Both the position numbers and the translations under genes were made by a program. The notes below the pieces were generated by a model that was not told the origin of the DNA, did no database searches, and was given only the letters and a program-made list of their open reading frames with translations. From positions 1-59,788 of the forward strand of contig CALXRQ010000007.1 of assembly GCA_944390895.1 (NCBI GenBank): a stretch of DNA of 59,788 nucleotides. Reading direction: 5' to 3'. Of the stretch, positions 5,924 through 55,680 are shown one piece after another (the stretch's first letter is position 1; every line of letters begins with the position of its first letter). The DNA is from an uncultured Alphaproteobacteria bacterium. Lineage in GTDB: Bacteria > Pseudomonadota > Alphaproteobacteria > RF32 > CAG-239.

Positions 5924-6595
5924 ATGACTGAAATTGCCTTCTATAATCTGATTGTCCATCTGGTAAACAACGATACGCTGACCGAAGAAAATGTAGCGCT
6001 GAAAAATATCTGGGGACGCGAGGGCAATATTATGCTGAGCCTTTATTTTTACCGCACCAAAACCTCCCGGGTGATTGACGCCTCTTATGTCCACGATATT
6101 ATGGATATGACCACGGAAAAATATTATACCCGCTGTCAGGATCTGCTCAGAGATTTTGCTTCTTACCGCGATTCTCTGGCTACGGGAGCAGATGCCGCCG
6201 CGGAAGACGATGCGCCGGTTCTCGATTTTAAGCACCTGGAAGAAATCCGCGATGATATTATCATTCTTATATACATAGCCAAATGCATAGATTATTTCTC
6301 CGAGATGAAAAAACGGACGATTTTTGAGTACATCAAAAAACACGCCGATGTTGAAAATTTGAGCTCCCAGTATATTGAAACATATCTGGTGGGATTAAAG
6401 CCGGATATTGAAGAGTTTTATCAGGCGCTGGACAATATCCGCCACAAAACGCCCGAGGCGGCGGAAGATCTGGCGCGGGAAGTCGTAAAAATCTGTGTCA
6501 GCGACGGAATAATGGCCTACAATGAAAAAATTTACATTGCGGAAATTCTGCAAACGCTGCGGGAACACGGTTTGGATCCCGATGTGGGATTATAA
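5924..6595 (+). CDS. Unknown protein coupled to mfd, possible TerB-like C-terminus
   Basis: A 223-residue soluble, acidic, alpha-helical protein with no signal peptide or membrane segment. The ATG is the base after the mfd stop codon, so it is very probably cotranslated with mfd. I do not recognise the full-length family. The last 45 residues (VKICVSDGIMAYNEKIY then IAEILQTLREHGL) resemble the TerB/DjlA-type pattern, an acidic 'xDG' turn followed by E-K/R and a Leu-rich helix; this is a weak inference. Position suggests a lineage-specific partner of repair or transcription coupling, but nothing in the sequence shows a catalytic motif. Confidence 0.85.
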   Translation: MTEIAFYNLIVHLVNNDTLTEENVALKNIWGREGNIMLSLYFYRTKTSRVIDASYVHDIMDMTTEKYYTRCQDLLRDFASYRDSLATGADAAAEDDAPVLDFKHLEEIRDDIIILIYIAKCIDYFSEMKKRTIFEYIKKHADVENLSSQYIETYLVGLKPDIEEFYQALDNIRHKTPEAAEDLAREVVKICVSDGIMAYNEKIYIAEILQTLREHGLDPDVGL

Positions 6596-6677
6596 AAAAA
6601 ATAGACAAAACAATATTGCCAAGCTTTGCAAAATATGATACTATCATATTGTTTAACAAGTATTATGTATGTCCCGC

Positions 6678-6702
6678 AGCACCTCAGGCAAGTGCTTTTT
6701 TT
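6678..6702 (+). terminator. Possible intrinsic terminator after the mfd operon
   Basis: AGCACCT (6678-6684) pairs with AAGTGCT (6690-6696) with one mismatch, 5-base loop, followed by a T-run to 6702. It lies 83 bases after the upstream stop and 28 bases before the next ATG, so it could also act as a leader attenuator for the 6731 gene. Confidence 0.55.
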
Positions 6703-6730
6703 AGGGATTCACGCCTAAATTATTAAGAAT

Positions 6731-7327
6731 ATGAAAGATTATAGAATTAATCCGTCAGCAACCCTTTGTTATGAAGGAAATTTGTTCATCCCCGAAGGAA
6801 AAAAGAGCTTTAACGTGGTGAAAATCACGGAAGTTCAGGCCTTGACCCTGAAACACCGTAGTGAGCAAAAAAGATATACTTCGTTTGCCGCGGCGCTGGA
6901 GGGGAACAACATTACCAATGCCCAACCCTTGGCGGAAGGAGAGTTCTACAACGGTTATGTTGCCGTTTGGAAGGGAAGCTGGATACAGGCCTGCCGTCTC
7001 ATCGGTTCGTTGCAGATTGCAAGTGATCCTCGAAAGTGGATAGGGGCTGATCCGAGGCTGCGTGAATTGTTGCCCAAAGGAGAGCTTCTGGAACCGCACA
7101 CAACCTGGAAAGAAGGCGAAGTCGTACACTGCGGCGCTTTTAAAGAAGTTTCGGCCGTCTGCGGATATTGGGGACATCCTTATCTTCAGGAGCGGGAAAT
7201 CGGCCGCCGCTTGAAAGAAGCCATTCTTAACCATGACGGTATTATTGCGCTGGAAGATGAAGAGGTTAAGGAACTTCTGGATTTTTCAGCCGCGTTTACC
7301 AGCGGAGCGTTGGTTTTGCCGGCATAA
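6731..7327 (+). CDS. Hypothetical protein, 198 residues
   Basis: I do not recognise this protein. It is soluble with no signal peptide; it is rich in Glu/Lys/Trp and has a well-folded composition. A short hairpin plus T-run sits just upstream, and a strong terminator lies 18 bases after the stop, so it looks monocistronic. The Shine-Dalgarno is poor (aagaat). Codon use is like that of its neighbours (GCC, CTG, GAA), which supports a real, resident gene. Two other orphan proteins of similar size (30367 and 36712) share the same monocistronic setting, but I see no convincing sequence relation. Confidence 0.8.
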   Translation: MKDYRINPSATLCYEGNLFIPEGKKSFNVVKITEVQALTLKHRSEQKRYTSFAAALEGNNITNAQPLAEGEFYNGYVAVWKGSWIQACRLIGSLQIASDPRKWIGADPRLRELLPKGELLEPHTTWKEGEVVHCGAFKEVSAVCGYWGHPYLQEREIGRRLKEAILNHDGIIALEDEEVKELLDFSAAFTSGALVLPA

Positions 7328-50340: not shown

Positions 50341-50922
50341 ATGAACAAAGCCAAAAACGTAAAAGAGTTTGTTGAAAGAATAGACAGCTCCAAAAAAGTT
50401 AATCCCAAAGATTTGTCTTCGGATCAGGATCTGACCATTGCGATTATGAATCTGATTTCGATTGAGGAACATTTGGTCTTTTCCGGCGCCAAAACCGGAA
50501 AGACGGCTTTTTATGATCTGATTGAAGAAGTCCGCGAAAAGCGCAAGACCCTGATGCAAAAAATCATTCCGTCTTATGAAGGGGAGGTCTGGTGCATCTC
50601 CAAACATCTGCTGGCTTCTTCCATGCGTCTGATGGAGGTCGGAACCAAACAGCAGAGCCTCGGCCATAAGGAAGCCGCGTATGACTTGTTTAATCAGGCT
50701 TACGAGTTGTATTGCCTGTTCTGGGGACTGAATATGAATATGCTCAACATTGATGATGTCAAATGGATTGAAGACAATGTTGACGACGTAAAAAAACTGA
50801 CGGCTAAAGTTAACGAAGCCGTTGCCGCGGTTCCGCCTGCAGATGAAGAAAAGGCGCCGCAGGGAGCCCTGGCCAAAATGAAAGCTTTTGTCCGCAAAGC
50901 CGTGGACTGTTGTATTGAATAA
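50341..50922 (+). CDS. Soluble protein paired with the 49800 membrane protein
   Basis: 193 residues, helical, with no membrane segment. The N-terminal half (ISSDQ... as LSSDQDLTIAIMNLISIEEHLVF; FYDLIEEVREKRKTLMQKII) resembles a four-helix bundle. Residues Glu/His in SIEEHL and KHLLASS are reminiscent of ferritin-like sites, but the pattern is incomplete. Ends in VDCCIE, giving two vicinal cysteines at the C-terminus. Cotranscribed with the CxxC membrane protein; a redox or metal-transfer partnership is inferred only from the cysteines. Confidence 0.82.
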   Translation: MNKAKNVKEFVERIDSSKKVNPKDLSSDQDLTIAIMNLISIEEHLVFSGAKTGKTAFYDLIEEVREKRKTLMQKIIPSYEGEVWCISKHLLASSMRLMEVGTKQQSLGHKEAAYDLFNQAYELYCLFWGLNMNMLNIDDVKWIEDNVDDVKKLTAKVNEAVAAVPPADEEKAPQGALAKMKAFVRKAVDCCIE

Positions 50923-51009: not shown

Positions 51010-51038
51010 TTTACATAATGTTAATACGTATATATTAT
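51010..51038 (+). promoter_or_regulatory. Promoter of the ubiquitin-autotransporter gene
   Basis: TTTACA (51010-51015), 17-base spacer, TATTAT (51033-51038); predicted start near 51045. Confidence 0.55.
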
Positions 51039-51076
51039 TAGTTAAATGTGGCAATTGACAAAATATGGAGAGCTTT

Positions 51077-53710
51077 ATGAAATATTCCCGCACCGCCTTA
51101 AAGGTATTGACTTCAAAATATCGTTCCGTTTTAAAAAAATGCGCGTTGATTAATGCCGGATTGTTTGCTGTAATGATACTTAGTGCCGGAGATGCATCAG
51201 CAATGCAGATTTTTGTAAAAACGCTGAGCGGCAAGCATATTACCCTTGAAGTCGAGCCGACAGACAGAATTGAAGATGTTATGGCCAAAATATATGACAA
51301 AGAAGGTGTTTTGCCGGAAAATCAGTTGTTGAATTTTGCCGGTAGAAGTTTGACGGCGGGCAATACGCTTCAGGATTATTCCATCCAGAAAGACAGTACT
51401 CTGCATTTGGTTTTAAGCCGGGATGTGAACACAGACAACGGAAAAAATTTTCCTCTTCTGGTACAAAACGGTACGGAAAAAATTAATTTGACCGGCAATA
51501 TAACTTTAGAAAATAATATTGAGGGGCAGAGTGCAGATGTCTTAATTGTCAACGGAAACGGTCATTCCATAAATGGCAACAGCAAAACCGGTTTTGTTAT
51601 AAATAGCGATAAAGAGCTTATCCTTAAAAATATCGGTAATTCTGCTGATGAGAAAAGCGGTTTATATAATTTTGTCAGCAACAGGGATAACGGGGTAATT
51701 TTTAATAATGAAGGCGGTTCCCTGAAAATTTTTGATTCTTCTATTTCAGGCAACAGCTTAAGTGGTGGAGCGGTTTATGCTACGATTACAAACCGTGGAA
51801 CGATGGAGTTAAATAGGGTCGTTATGACCGGTAATTCTGTCAATGCCAGTTTTATGGCTTTGGGTGGGGCTATCTTTACGGGAGGCAATGCTGAAACAAA
51901 CATTAAAAACAGCTTTTTTTATAACAACCAAGCATCGGGAGGAAGCTTTGCACCGACCGGTGGTGTTGCTCATAATCAGGGGACGATGAATATTTCCGGC
52001 AGCCGTTTTGAAGAAAATTCCGCCGGGGAGGGCGGCGCTATATATAATGAACACACTCACGGCAGTCGGTTGGAAATTTCTGATTCTGTTTTTATAAATA
52101 ATAAAGCGTCATTAAAAGGTGGTGCTATTGGGGGAGCTGGAAATTCATCGCTGACTTTGAGCGGAAATAACATTTTTCAGGGAAATACCGCCGCCGGAAA
52201 ACTAAACGATATTCATAATGATTCCATGTTGACTATTTCATCCGGACATACATCTTTTACCGGCGGTATAGATGGCAACGGAGAAATAAATGTCAACGAT
52301 GCCGAAGTTACACTGGCATCGACAGCTTCGGTCTCCGGCGGTTCGATTAGCTTTAATGGCAATTCCAAACTGAATGTCGGTATCAAAGACACTTCTGAAT
52401 ACGCTTCGATAAAAGCCGATGAACTGAACATTGAAGATGGTGCCAAGCTTAATCTGATAGTTAATTCCGATACGGAAATCGGCAGTTATGACATCTTGCA
52501 AAGCGGTCATATTGAAGGAAAATTTGACGTAAGCAATAATCTTTACAATTTTGCGCTGAACGATGACGGTTCATTACTCTACAGCGGTAAGAAAACAGAG
52601 ACGGAAATAGCAGGCGCTTTAAATACGAGCAAAAACAATGCCGGCCTCATCAATGCTTTTACCAACGGTCACGGTTCCAATCAGAGTTTTAACGATATTG
52701 CGGACTATATAAATACTTCGCTTCAGAACGGAAGTGACAGCGGAAAAATAGTCGATGGAGCCTATGCTCTGGCTCCCGATGCCGCGCCGTTAGCCAGAAC
52801 GGCTGCCACCGAGCATAGTTCTCAGGTCTTTAATGCCGTATCGTCAAGGCTGTCGGGCGGCGTTGTTTCCGGCATTTTACCCGGTATGTCTGCCGGAGAC
52901 GGAATTTTTGATAAAGGAGCCTCCTGGGTGCAGATGCTGGCGAACAAATCAAAACTTGACGATAATTCTAAAACGCACGGTTTTGATGTAAAATCCGGCG
53001 GTGTGGCCATGGGATTTGAAAAGGCTGTCGGAGACAATCGCAAAGCAGGTGTGGGCTATGCATATACCCAAAGCGACGTTGAGGGTTTTTTACGTGATAC
53101 GGACATTGATACGCATACGATTTTTATTTACGGAGAATATAAACCGTCAAAGTGGTATCTCAATGCCGTCGCATCATACAGCTTCGCTGGCTATAAAGAA
53201 CATAAAAATGCTTACGGCCGCATTGTCAAATCTAAATATGATACGGATACGCTGGGACTGCAATTGATGAGCGGTTATGAACTGAATGTCGGCAATGTTG
53301 ACGTCACGCCGGAAGGAGGAATGCGCTATGCCCGCATCGACCGCGATGCGTATACGGATACGCTGGGGCAGGAGGTGTCTTCCCGTACGATGGACGTCTT
53401 AACGGCAGTTGCCGGTGCCAGAGTTGCAAAAAACTTTACAACCTGCGGCGGAACCAATTGGCAGCCCGAAGCACGGCTGGCCTTAACTTATGATATTATT
53501 TCCGATACCGATAATGCGTTAGTCGGCTTAAGCAACAATTCGTCATACGTCATCAACGGTGATCGGCTCCATCGTTTGGGGCTGGAAATAGGTGCCGGAT
53601 TTTCGGTCGAAGTCAATGATCGCATAGAAGCGGAATTTGGTTATGAAGGACAGTTCCGGCAGGATTATCAGAACCATACCGGCATGATTAACGCAAAGTA
53701 TCGTTTTTAG
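51077..53710 (+). CDS. Type V autotransporter with N-terminal ubiquitin domain
   Basis: 877 residues from ATG 51077 (GGAG 6 bases upstream; an ATG at 51065 would add four residues). A long basic signal peptide (residues 1-42; hydrophobic [12 protein letters not shown], end GDASA) resembles the extended signals of autotransporters. Residues 43-113 are a ubiquitin fold. The passenger (about 114-600) is a right-handed beta-helix with repeated GGA[IV]-type turns ([24 protein letters not shown]), as in Pmp-like adhesins. The barrel (about 613-877, from [12 protein letters not shown] to KYRF) has the terminal aromatic residue for BAM recognition. Predicted to present ubiquitin at the cell surface, or release it. 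Single gene with terminator. Confidence 0.93.
51203..51415 (+). other. Ubiquitin-like domain within the autotransporter
   Basis: Codons for 71 residues, beginning [19 protein letters not shown] and continuing through [14 protein letters not shown]. Fifty of the 71 positions equal human ubiquitin 1-71 by my hand count. Retained: Lys6, 11, 29, 33, 63, Leu8, His68, Val70. Changed: Lys27 to Met, Lys48 to Arg, Arg42 to Leu, Ile44 to Asn. From position 72 the sequence reads SRDVN, so the RLRGG tail is absent and the domain runs straight into the passenger. The Met1 codon follows the signal-peptidase site (Ala-Ser-Ala), so the mature chain should start at ubiquitin Met1. Confidence 0.97.
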
Positions 53711-53796: not shown

Positions 53797-55680
53797 TTAG
53801 ATATCGCTTAAACCGGCGTTTTTATAATCCACCGTAATTTTATAATTAGAGCCGTATGCATTAACCAGCTGATTGGCAGCTTCTTGAGTCAGATCGGAGA
53901 CAACTTTCATCTTCATGGCATTTGCTTCCTCGGAAGAAATGTTTTTGCTGTCGTTGACAATCTGCGTATTGACGGCAACGATTTGGACATTGCCCAGAGA
54001 ATAAAGCTTGGGCATATTCATTTGTTCCTGAAAGAGCTCTTTTACCTGAGCATTGCTGAGGTTGGCGAACGTCTCGTTCCTCTTGAGCGGTTTGGTTACA
54101 TTCAGGCTGAGTTTGAATCTCCGGGCAACTTCGTCAATGCTGTCGCCGTTTTCCAAATCATGAGTAACGTCGTTAATGATTTCCTGAGCAATGGCGCTGC
54201 GCTCGTTTTCTTCCCACAGTTCTTCAATCTCGGATTTTACCTCGGCTATCTCTTTGGGGTGCGCGTCGGTAACGGCGTCAACGCGAACAATGACAAAACC
54301 GTCTTCTTCTTCAATAACCTGACTGATTTCGCCGATGTTGTAAGAAAAGACCGTGTCCAGAAAGTCGTTGGATTTCAGCAGTTTTTTATGTTCTTCGGGC
54401 ATGGATCCGGCTTGTCCGTCGTCGCTGAGCGCCTTAACCTTATAAATCCGGACTTTGTTTTCTTTGGCAATATCTTCCAAAGATTTTCCGGCGCCGATCT
54501 GGTCTTCAATCTGGGAGACGGTCTCGTAAGCCTCGTCATAAGCCTTTTCTTTTCTGATTTCGTCAATGATTTTCTTGCGGGCTTCGGCCTTAGGCATCTC
54601 GCTTTTGGCTTTAATGCCGGTGACTTTCATAATGTGCCAGCCCATCTCGGATTTGACCGGTCCGGCCGTTTCGCCGTTTTTCAGGCTGAATATTTTCCCG
54701 CCCATATCGGCAATCAGCTGATCCTGAGCAACCCATCCCAGCTCGGTGGCGCTTTTATCTTGTTTGGCCTGAGTTTTGGCAACCTTGTAAAAGTCTTCGC
54801 CGGCCTTAAGTTTTGCGGCCGCAGCTTCGGCATCGCTTTCCTGGTCAAAAACCATCTGCAAAACGTTTCTTTTTTCAGGGGTAACAAACTGGCTTATATT
54901 TTCCTCATAATAAGCGTTGATTTCGTCTTCTTCGGGTTGGAAACGTGCGGCTATGTCATCCGTTTTCAAAACGACGAAAGAAGCGTCTCTTTTCTCCGGT
55001 TCGACGAACTGCGGTGCAAAGTCCTGATAATATTGTTCCAGTTCGTCTTGGGAAATTTTGCGGTCAATCGGCAGTTTATCGGTGTTAATGGTAATATATT
55101 TGAACACTTTCCGCTGATTGTTGATTTTTTCCAGATACGGCGTCATAAACTTCGGAACGTTGAAGTTTTCGACCAAACCGTGAATCAGATGCTGTTTGAT
55201 AACGTCTTCTTTCAGGGTTTGGATGTATTTTCCTTCGCTCCAGCCGGAAGCGCTCAAAAGGCGTTTGAATTTTTCGGGGCTGAAACGTCCGTCCGCGTCC
55301 AGAAATTCGGACTGTGAAAAAATGATTTGTCTGACATAGTCGTCACTGATGCTGACCCCCAGATCGTCCGCTGTTTCCTGCATAATGGCGTTCATCAGTT
55401 CTTTTTGGATAATTCCCTGCAGCAGGGCGCTCCGCATTGACTCGTTAATGTCGAGATTCTCGCCGAACAGGTTCTTTGCCATCTGCATTTCGTGATTAAA
55501 CTGGCTGTTGATGTCGGCCTGAGATATGTTTATGCTTCCGACGCTGATGACCGGTTTGTTTTTCCCGGCGCTGCCGATATAACCCGTAATGCCGAACAAA
55601 GACACGAAACTCAGGGCGGTTAAAATCAATAATAGCTTGATAATCCAAGAATCCTTGATTTTTGTCAGTTTGGTAATCAT
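53797..55680 (-). CDS. ppiD: Periplasmic folding chaperone PpiD-like (SurA_N + parvulin)
   Basis: 627 residues. One N-terminal membrane anchor (IIKLLLILTALSFVSLFGITGYIG) with the rest in the periplasm. The SurA_N-like region (ISVGSINISQADINSQFNHEMQ, about 45-170) is followed by the parvulin domain (ITPEKRNVLQMVF..., GEDFYKVAKTQAKQDKSATELGWV, PVKSEMGWHIMKVTGI, about 260-360). A second PPIase-like half covers the C-terminus. It assists outer-membrane-protein folding at the Sec translocon exit, relevant for the neighbouring autotransporter. It is divergent from tpiA, as in most alphaproteobacteria. Confidence 0.93.
   Translation of the reverse strand: MITKLTKIKDSWIIKLLLILTALSFVSLFGITGYIGSAGKNKPVISVGSINISQADINSQFNHEMQMAKNLFGENLDINESMRSALLQGIIQKELMNAIMQETADDLGVSISDDYVRQIIFSQSEFLDADGRFSPEKFKRLLSASGWSEGKYIQTLKEDVIKQHLIHGLVENFNVPKFMTPYLEKINNQRKVFKYITINTDKLPIDRKISQDELEQYYQDFAPQFVEPEKRDASFVVLKTDDIAARFQPEEDEINAYYEENISQFVTPEKRNVLQMVFDQESDAEAAAAKLKAGEDFYKVAKTQAKQDKSATELGWVAQDQLIADMGGKIFSLKNGETAGPVKSEMGWHIMKVTGIKAKSEMPKAEARKKIIDEIRKEKAYDEAYETVSQIEDQIGAGKSLEDIAKENKVRIYKVKALSDDGQAGSMPEEHKKLLKSNDFLDTVFSYNIGEISQVIEEEDGFVIVRVDAVTDAHPKEIAEVKSEIEELWEENERSAIAQEIINDVTHDLENGDSIDEVARRFKLSLNVTKPLKRNETFANLSNAQVKELFQEQMNMPKLYSLGNVQIVAVNTQIVNDSKNISSEEANAMKMKVVSDLTQEAANQLVNAYGSNYKITVDYKNAGLSDI

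Follow-up and report, generated by a model that had tools for sequence, protein, structure and literature searches.

A gene in the 59,788-nucleotide stretch of DNA analyzed here (hereafter the window), from an uncultured alphaproteobacterium, encodes an autotransporter whose predicted mature N-terminus is a ubiquitin of eukaryotic type. On balance, we favor the reading that this domain is a captured, parabasalid-type ubiquitin that would serve as a conjugation-dead ligand module displayed on the autotransporter. More generally, it appears probable that ubiquitin has become a horizontally mobile surface module of bacteria: it would have been captured at least twice (from a parabasalid, and once or more from eukaryotes with canonical ubiquitin), and in many phyla selection would have fixed it right after the signal peptide of surface proteins that are unrelated to one another, with the Trichomonas-type copies re-purposed to the opposite face of the domain.

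Architecture of the window protein

Pfam placed the ubiquitin family PF00240 on residues 49–119 of the window protein (74 bits, E 8.2e-21, cut-off 25.4), a score that excludes a chance resemblance. By this curated cut-off and by its fold, the domain is a member of the family. It is identical to human ubiquitin (PDB sequence) at 50/71 positions, and the changes include R42L, I44N, K48R, and K27M; the only lysines left are Lys6, 11, 29, 33, and 63. Residue 72 is a serine with no diglycine after it, LRLRGG is absent, and the same frame runs on for 764 residues past the ubiquitin; the mature form is not a free 76-aa protein. The missing diglycine and the loss of R42 and R72 argue strongly that the domain should not be conjugable. 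Genes for E2 enzymes (PF00179) and deubiquitinases (PF00443) were found in 0/7 genomes each, and likewise in none of 14 control genomes, so that the zero counts do not establish their absence.

The coordinates of the parts are collected in Table 1. The probable start is ATG 51077, not ATG 51065, because GGAG lies directly upstream of it (judged by eye). Ubiquitin Met1 follows directly on the signal-peptidase-like AxA site behind a hydrophobic stretch, the cut being predicted by rule. Sigma-70-like promoter matches numbered 11 in the region, against 5.7 expected from shuffles. Toward the C-terminus, PF03797 matched residues 621–861 (157.9 bits, E 5e-46) and TIGR01414 scored 87.5 bits (NCBIfam); in the passenger, a single Chlam_PMP repeat match lay under its Pfam cut-off. 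By its barrel and signal peptide, the protein is a type Va autotransporter, the surface position of its passenger being predicted from family knowledge.

Table 1. Parts of the ubiquitin-headed autotransporter gene and its upstream region, in window coordinates
Feature	Positions	Strand	Basis
Sigma-70-like promoter match, TTTACA-17-TATTAT	51010..51038	+	Consensus match only
ORF, ubiquitin-headed autotransporter	51065..53710	+	881 aa from ATG 51065; ORF list, Pfam, model
Signal peptide (predicted), ending ...AGDASA	51077..51202	+	Hydrophobic stretch, AxA rule
Ubiquitin domain, residues 1–71 of ubiquitin	51203..51415	+	Pfam, alignment, Foldseek, pLDDT
Passenger, many short strands, beta-helix-like	51416..52780	+	Pfam and model, much of the stretch at low model confidence
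Predicted helix preceding the barrel, residues 573–593	52781..52843	+	AlphaFold model
Autotransporter beta-barrel PF03797, ending ...KYRF	52925..53707	+	Pfam, TIGR01414, Foldseek

The AlphaFold model of the whole protein has a low mean confidence (61.6), with pLDDT block means of 76–90 over residues 51–120. Foldseek aligned the ubiquitin part with ubiquitin chains at rmsd 0.7–2.3 Å among the rows listed (3ptf_D, 0.7 over 73 columns) and the barrel part with the barrels of EstA, NalP, BrkA, and EspP. A sequence-only reading of this DNA had placed a ubiquitin, 50/71 identical to the human protein, at 51203..51415, and both the count and the coordinates were borne out. Its further points held as well: Met1 stands exactly at the cut predicted by the AxA rule, I44 and K48 are altered and the tail is gone, the five lysines are kept, activation by E1 is not to be expected given the lost tail, and the carrier is a type V autotransporter.

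Relatives and genomic setting

Within the family, 7/153 genomes from 3/16 genera had a ubiquitin match. Five of the other six genomes combine signal peptide, ubiquitin, and barrel in ORFs of 384–418 aa, in which ubiquitin is the only passenger domain seen. The model of a 387-aa relative (L013; pLDDT 83.4) matched ubiquitin with most rows at 0.4–1.0 Å, and its helix and barrel resembled those of EspP and NalP. At L018 in genome G007, signal peptide and ubiquitin form a 101-aa ORF (5941–6246), and the barrel is encoded separately at 6287–7099, about 40 bases downstream; this arrangement would reflect either a split gene or a form that naturally stands alone. Ubiquitin matches were found in 7/154 genomes of the order and in 6/385 of the class, five of the latter over the cut-off. 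In the one-contig genome G320, a ubiquitin that has diverged strongly precedes a barrel-like protein. This locus (L122) and L120 of G416, from two species of one alphaproteobacterial genus, have a ubiquitin-headed barrel-like protein in common with very different ubiquitin divergence, which offers a chance to follow the decay of the ubiquitin part.

An assembly or binning artefact is exceedingly improbable. All seven family examples are draft genomes, which would leave room for it; however, fusions were found in many separate genomes, including the complete plasmid of Ruminococcus albus 7 and the one-contig G320. A chimera, which had been set beforehand as the refuter of the fusion, fails on the ubiquitin–barrel fusions in five other family genomes, and the artefact explanation was rejected.

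The window gene is the only PF00240 match in its own genome and across the seven genomes of its genus. Ubiquitin-less autotransporter homologues occur in 3/6 of the other genus genomes and as two further genes (paralogues) in the same genome; the homologue in sister genome G006 has a similar signal peptide, alignable to that of the window protein, and then the passenger directly, without ubiquitin. Both flanks of the window gene could be compared in four sister genomes (G001, G002, G004, G006); in G003 and G005, only the PPIase side fell within the 10 kb fetched. In 4/4, the flanking gene at 50341 and the PPIase gene are present with other small ORFs between them and no autotransporter match, which gives the window gene the look of an insertion into a site that is conserved apart from it.

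The gene adjoining on the other side (53797–55680) encodes a SurA/PpiD-type PPIase and is present in 7/7 genus genomes regardless of ubiquitin. A 2023 paper in Nature Microbiology is reportedly about a PPIase target of BfUbb, the secreted ubiquitin of Bacteroides fragilis. The neighboring PPIase was rejected as a BfUbb-like target or immunity gene: it is found in all seven genus genomes, and the same neighbors occur without the ubiquitin gene. Its adjacency looks ordinary, since it is present with or without that gene. Inspection by eye of six loci revealed no recurring immunity or accessory gene beside the ubiquitin genes.

Distribution and carriers of secreted ubiquitins

A scan of genome contigs covering 84,980 species (per the database description) returned 284 relatives, the best 80 of which were analyzed; PF00240 matched in 80/80. 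The scan patterns cover ubiquitin residues 1–8 and 10–17, and conservation there is therefore inflated. By a simple rule for signal peptides, ubiquitin Met1 stands exactly at a signal-peptidase-like junction (hydrophobic stretch, -3,-1 site) in 74/76 judgeable loci; 4/80 had too little upstream sequence, and L015 and L055 failed the rule. L015 (5500–6300, Frisingicoccus caecimuris DSM 28559) has an internal Trichomonas-type ubiquitin about 100 residues behind its signal peptide.

Defining Trichomonas-type ubiquitins as those with at least five of the eight residues that separate this type from human ubiquitin assigned 31/80 to the group, which with the window makes 32 rows. An autotransporter barrel was matched at E 0.001 in 17/80 (5/31 Trichomonas-type and 12/49 other proteins); nine alphaproteobacterial relatives can be aligned to the window barrel, so some real barrels fall below this threshold. 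Ubiquitin heads exported proteins of many unrelated families, other carriers among the best 80 having CBM_X2, InlB-type repeats, SLH, IPTL-CTERM, T9SS tails, Ig-like, and GLUG domains. Six proteins scanned with NCBIfam reached the cut-off of no ubiquitin-type model, the nearest being rad23 with 25–55 bits against 207.

LRLRGG is kept in 6/80. In five loci (L049 from Dyella sp. OK004, L051, L053, L062, and L076), a canonical-type ubiquitin with intact LRLRGG follows a signal peptide; L049 consists of a signal peptide and a complete 76-aa ubiquitin, and the other four run on into a passenger that a deubiquitinase could in principle release. L049 and L082 are stand-alone signal-peptide–ubiquitin genes. 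Two further ubiquitin-headed proteins, L047 and L065 (1115 and 1662 residues from the ubiquitin on), come from one genome (same record prefix) and have ubiquitin DNA identical at 198/213 positions, a probable duplication inside a genome.

A stability or export cap, in which a small and stable domain would head the mature protein, help its carrier, and have no partner of its own, would fit two observations: the secreted carriers belong to many unrelated families and begin with ubiquitin in nearly every judged locus, and six loci showed no recurrent accessory gene. The stand-alone genes L049 and L082 speak against a cap, as do the genus homologues found, which manage without ubiquitin, and we regard it as unlikely.

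Taxon and habitat were taken from record titles, many of them of metagenome bins, and odd names (archaeal, Prochlorococcus) may be misbinned. Record titles also place canonical-type relatives in marine (L038) or pond (L078) settings or under the names of free-living genera, for example Prochlorococcus (L057), which makes a vertebrate host improbable as the general partner. Gut sources, such as goat cecum (L023) or sheep rectum (L031), are given in just some titles of the Trichomonas-type group; a gut habitat of the group beyond these titles is an impression.

As to vehicles, a phage was considered and rejected: 50,697 phage records gave no match and plasmid records gave two, one at 45% identity over 79% of the query. 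Ruminococcus albus 7 has the locus L131 (3923–4663) on its complete plasmid pRUMAL01; it encodes a signal peptide and ubiquitin, is annotated 'ubiquitin family protein', and lies among hypothetical genes and one with dockerin repeats, with a transposase-like gene near. Seven IMG/VR contigs matched, five with a signal-peptide–ubiquitin gene (L125, L126, L127, L129, and L130); three of these are nearly alike and have a short C-terminal sorting-like tail, two have 444 residues from the ubiquitin on, and all five may be either host fragments or mobile elements. GC content gave no trace of recent transfer in 11/12 genes, where the ubiquitin part lay within 0.06 of the rest of the gene; in L015, it was 0.10 lower.

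Origin of the ubiquitin domain

A profile of seven family ubiquitins scored 161.7 bits against PDB 5xy3 chain m, versus about 139 against human monomeric ubiquitin; 5xy3 is described as a Trichomonas vaginalis ribosome entry (PMC8860606, PMC8215155). The window has the Trichomonas state at all eight positions separating this type from human ubiquitin, so that human ubiquitin, with which the sequence-only reading had compared it, is not the closest reference. The ubiquitin of L009, an alphaproteobacterial relative, scored 144.2 bits against 5xy3_m, an exact match in an equal-length chain scored 144.3 (143.7–144.7 when the tail was shuffled), and with the reference tail all 1349 single substitutions stayed at or below 143.9 bits. 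The L009 ubiquitin is thus identical to that of T. vaginalis over 71 residues or within a conservative change of it. The window domain is identical to this Trichomonas-type sequence at 58/71 positions, and 12 of the 13 changes fall in residues 27–52. It has the eight diagnostic residues in common with the T. vaginalis protein (chain m, 132 aa); unlike the latter, it has no diglycine tail and no ribosomal partner, and it is predicted to be exported.

In a tree of 84 rows, a branch with support of 100/97 had on one side the 33 Trichomonas-type rows, among them the window and the T. vaginalis sequence as inferred; the columns that define this grouping were also part of the input to the tree. Built from 72 columns, the tree resolves few forks, its bootstrap had not settled, and T. 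vaginalis is the only protist included. The window paired with [Clostridium] spiroforme An567 (support 91/85), a sequence hint of transfer between phyla. These comparisons point to a parabasalid as the likely donor of window-type ubiquitin; the donor may also have been a different parabasalid, or a eukaryote outside the sampling that has the same ubiquitin. Synonymous sites are near saturation between most Trichomonas-type members (mean pS 0.84, pN 0.14), indicating that most are not recent copies of each other, and separate captures would give this same picture.

Selection and surface conservation

dN/dS was 0.03–0.26 in the 14 closest pairs, with a median of 0.15 in the 34/496 pairs with dS below 1.5. 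Pairs of the same architecture (L013/L016/L021, L009/L014) appear to speak for selection inside bacteria; a low ratio between separately caught copies would partly reflect the donor's selection, as may be the case in distant pairs.

Relative to the Trichomonas sequence, R42 was changed in 24 of the 32 rows, Q49 in 23, V70 in 17, I44 in 12, and residue 72 in 27, whereas Q2, F4, H12, T20, Q57, and K63 were changed in none and D64 in one. As a control for scan bias, the 24 loci matching GKHITLEV all keep Q2 and F4, and the other seven all keep H12. Positions reported as sensitive in yeast are R42, I44, and K48, with V70, I36, and L71 added under stress (PMC4862753); in residues 18–72, outside the scan patterns, yeast-sensitive positions changed more than the others, at 9.67 versus 4.24 parsimony steps (permutation 0.0075). 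The surface at 54–66 changes least, and the kept surfaces 54–66 and 18–21 are as tight as the core, in sets chosen after seeing the data, a pattern that again counts against a cap with no partner. In the Trichomonas-type group, the face used by the ubiquitin machinery (R42, I44, V70, and the tail) has decayed and the opposite surface has been kept. The kept surface argues for a partner of the domain; fold constraint may account for some of the conservation. Of the 49 canonical-type rows, 47 keep I44 and 42 keep R42 (changed in two and seven, respectively). As I44-face decay is confined to the Trichomonas-type group, it does not follow that all groups have one function, and the canonical-type ubiquitins may be younger or used differently.

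Binding of host UIM/UBA-type proteins, which had been suggested for the window domain, looks unlikely with the I44 face decayed in this group. A wider host- or protist-directed mimicry, in which the displayed ubiquitin would bind eukaryotic receptors or extracellular proteins (in adhesion, immune modulation, or grazing resistance), seems doubtful to us. The window group has a parabasalid-type ubiquitin, so that donor and possible neighbor coincide, but a local donor is expected under any function. Extracellular ubiquitin is reported to be immunomodulatory, its 1–74 form binding CXCR4 without activating it and activation by full ubiquitin being contested (PMC10892293), and anti-ubiquitin antibodies are reported to recognize BfUbb (PMC11773492). 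Against this, V70, which belongs to the classical face, differs in 17/32 rows, and some records with canonical-type relatives bear the names of free-living organisms.

Discussion

Starting from what was observed (the sequence, the fusion and its kin, the origin signal, the low dN/dS values, and the surface pattern), we infer a ligand role and a target along the following course. A bacterial ancestor would have captured the ubiquitin of a Trichomonas-like protist, and the captured domain would have been placed directly behind the signal peptide of the window autotransporter. As family knowledge of export and display leads one to expect, Sec would export the protein, signal peptidase would free ubiquitin Met1, and the barrel would enter the outer membrane with the passenger threaded out, so that ubiquitin would come to lie at the outermost end. 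The folded ubiquitin would there bind an extracellular partner via the Q2/F4/H12, E18–D21, and N54–T66 surface, not the classical I44 patch. Counted against this displayed-ligand reading are the missing recurrent accessory gene at the six loci and the separate ubiquitin and barrel ORFs of G007.

As a first guess, by analogy with BfUbb, the ligand might tentatively be assigned a competitor bacterium as its target; a protist or host factor is a questionable candidate. An antibacterial head, released or presented on contact, could then act like BfUbb, a possibility within the displayed-ligand reading. Synthetic 76-aa BfUbb is reported to inhibit 13/40 B. fragilis strains, bovine ubiquitin being inactive, and the data given suggest that BfUbb works without an immunity protein (PMC5705921); bacteriostatic action is also reported for an oyster ubiquitin that lacks GG (PMC10892293). 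However, BfUbb is free and the window domain tethered, with access to a target only presumed, and the PPIase gene at 53797–55680 does not qualify as a linked target or immunity gene, since it occurs whether or not the ubiquitin gene is there. We rank antagonism first, host or protist mimicry second, and a stability cap third; antagonism leads because BfUbb is the one tested analogue.

BfUbb is described as having a signal peptide with Met1 at the cut, having lost the terminal glycine, and being secreted (PMC5705921). Like the window domain, it is a eukaryotic-type, non-conjugable ubiquitin with Met1 at the predicted cut and changed last residues, thought to be horizontally acquired and patchy in its species (PMC3352274, PMC5705921). 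Unlike the window domain, BfUbb is a free 76-aa protein that inhibits conspecifics, whereas the window domain, which is of Trichomonas type and known from sequence alone, forms the head of a protein with a barrel anchor. The BfUbb parallel drawn in the sequence-only reading was apt, but the activity reported for BfUbb, inhibition of B. fragilis strains (PMC5705921), had gone unconsidered. The type Va autotransporters EspP, NalP, and AIDA-I resemble the window protein in their signal peptide, strand-rich passenger, and C-terminal barrel, and differ in that only the window protein has a eukaryotic-type ubiquitin at its mature N-terminus.

Secreted bacterial ubiquitins and autotransporters are both known kinds; the novelty lies in their combination, and its breadth was unexpected. 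The claim that such a fusion is undescribed stood in so far as no description was found among the literature matches listed, all open-licence papers, but the fusion is not unique, given that 17/80 scan loci match the barrel family. BfUbb, from one species, is the only secreted bacterial ubiquitin described among those open-licence matches. A signal peptide followed by ubiquitin recurs as a design across phyla, in most cases at the front of a larger protein that is exported, and a protist donor can be proposed for one group of bacterial ubiquitins. The range of bacteria with products that might cross-react with human ubiquitin also becomes wider; such cross-reaction has already been raised as a question for BfUbb (PMC11773492). 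The role of extracellular bacterial ubiquitin, the reason why Met1 stands at the cut, and the reader of the face that tolerates mutation in yeast can now be tested.
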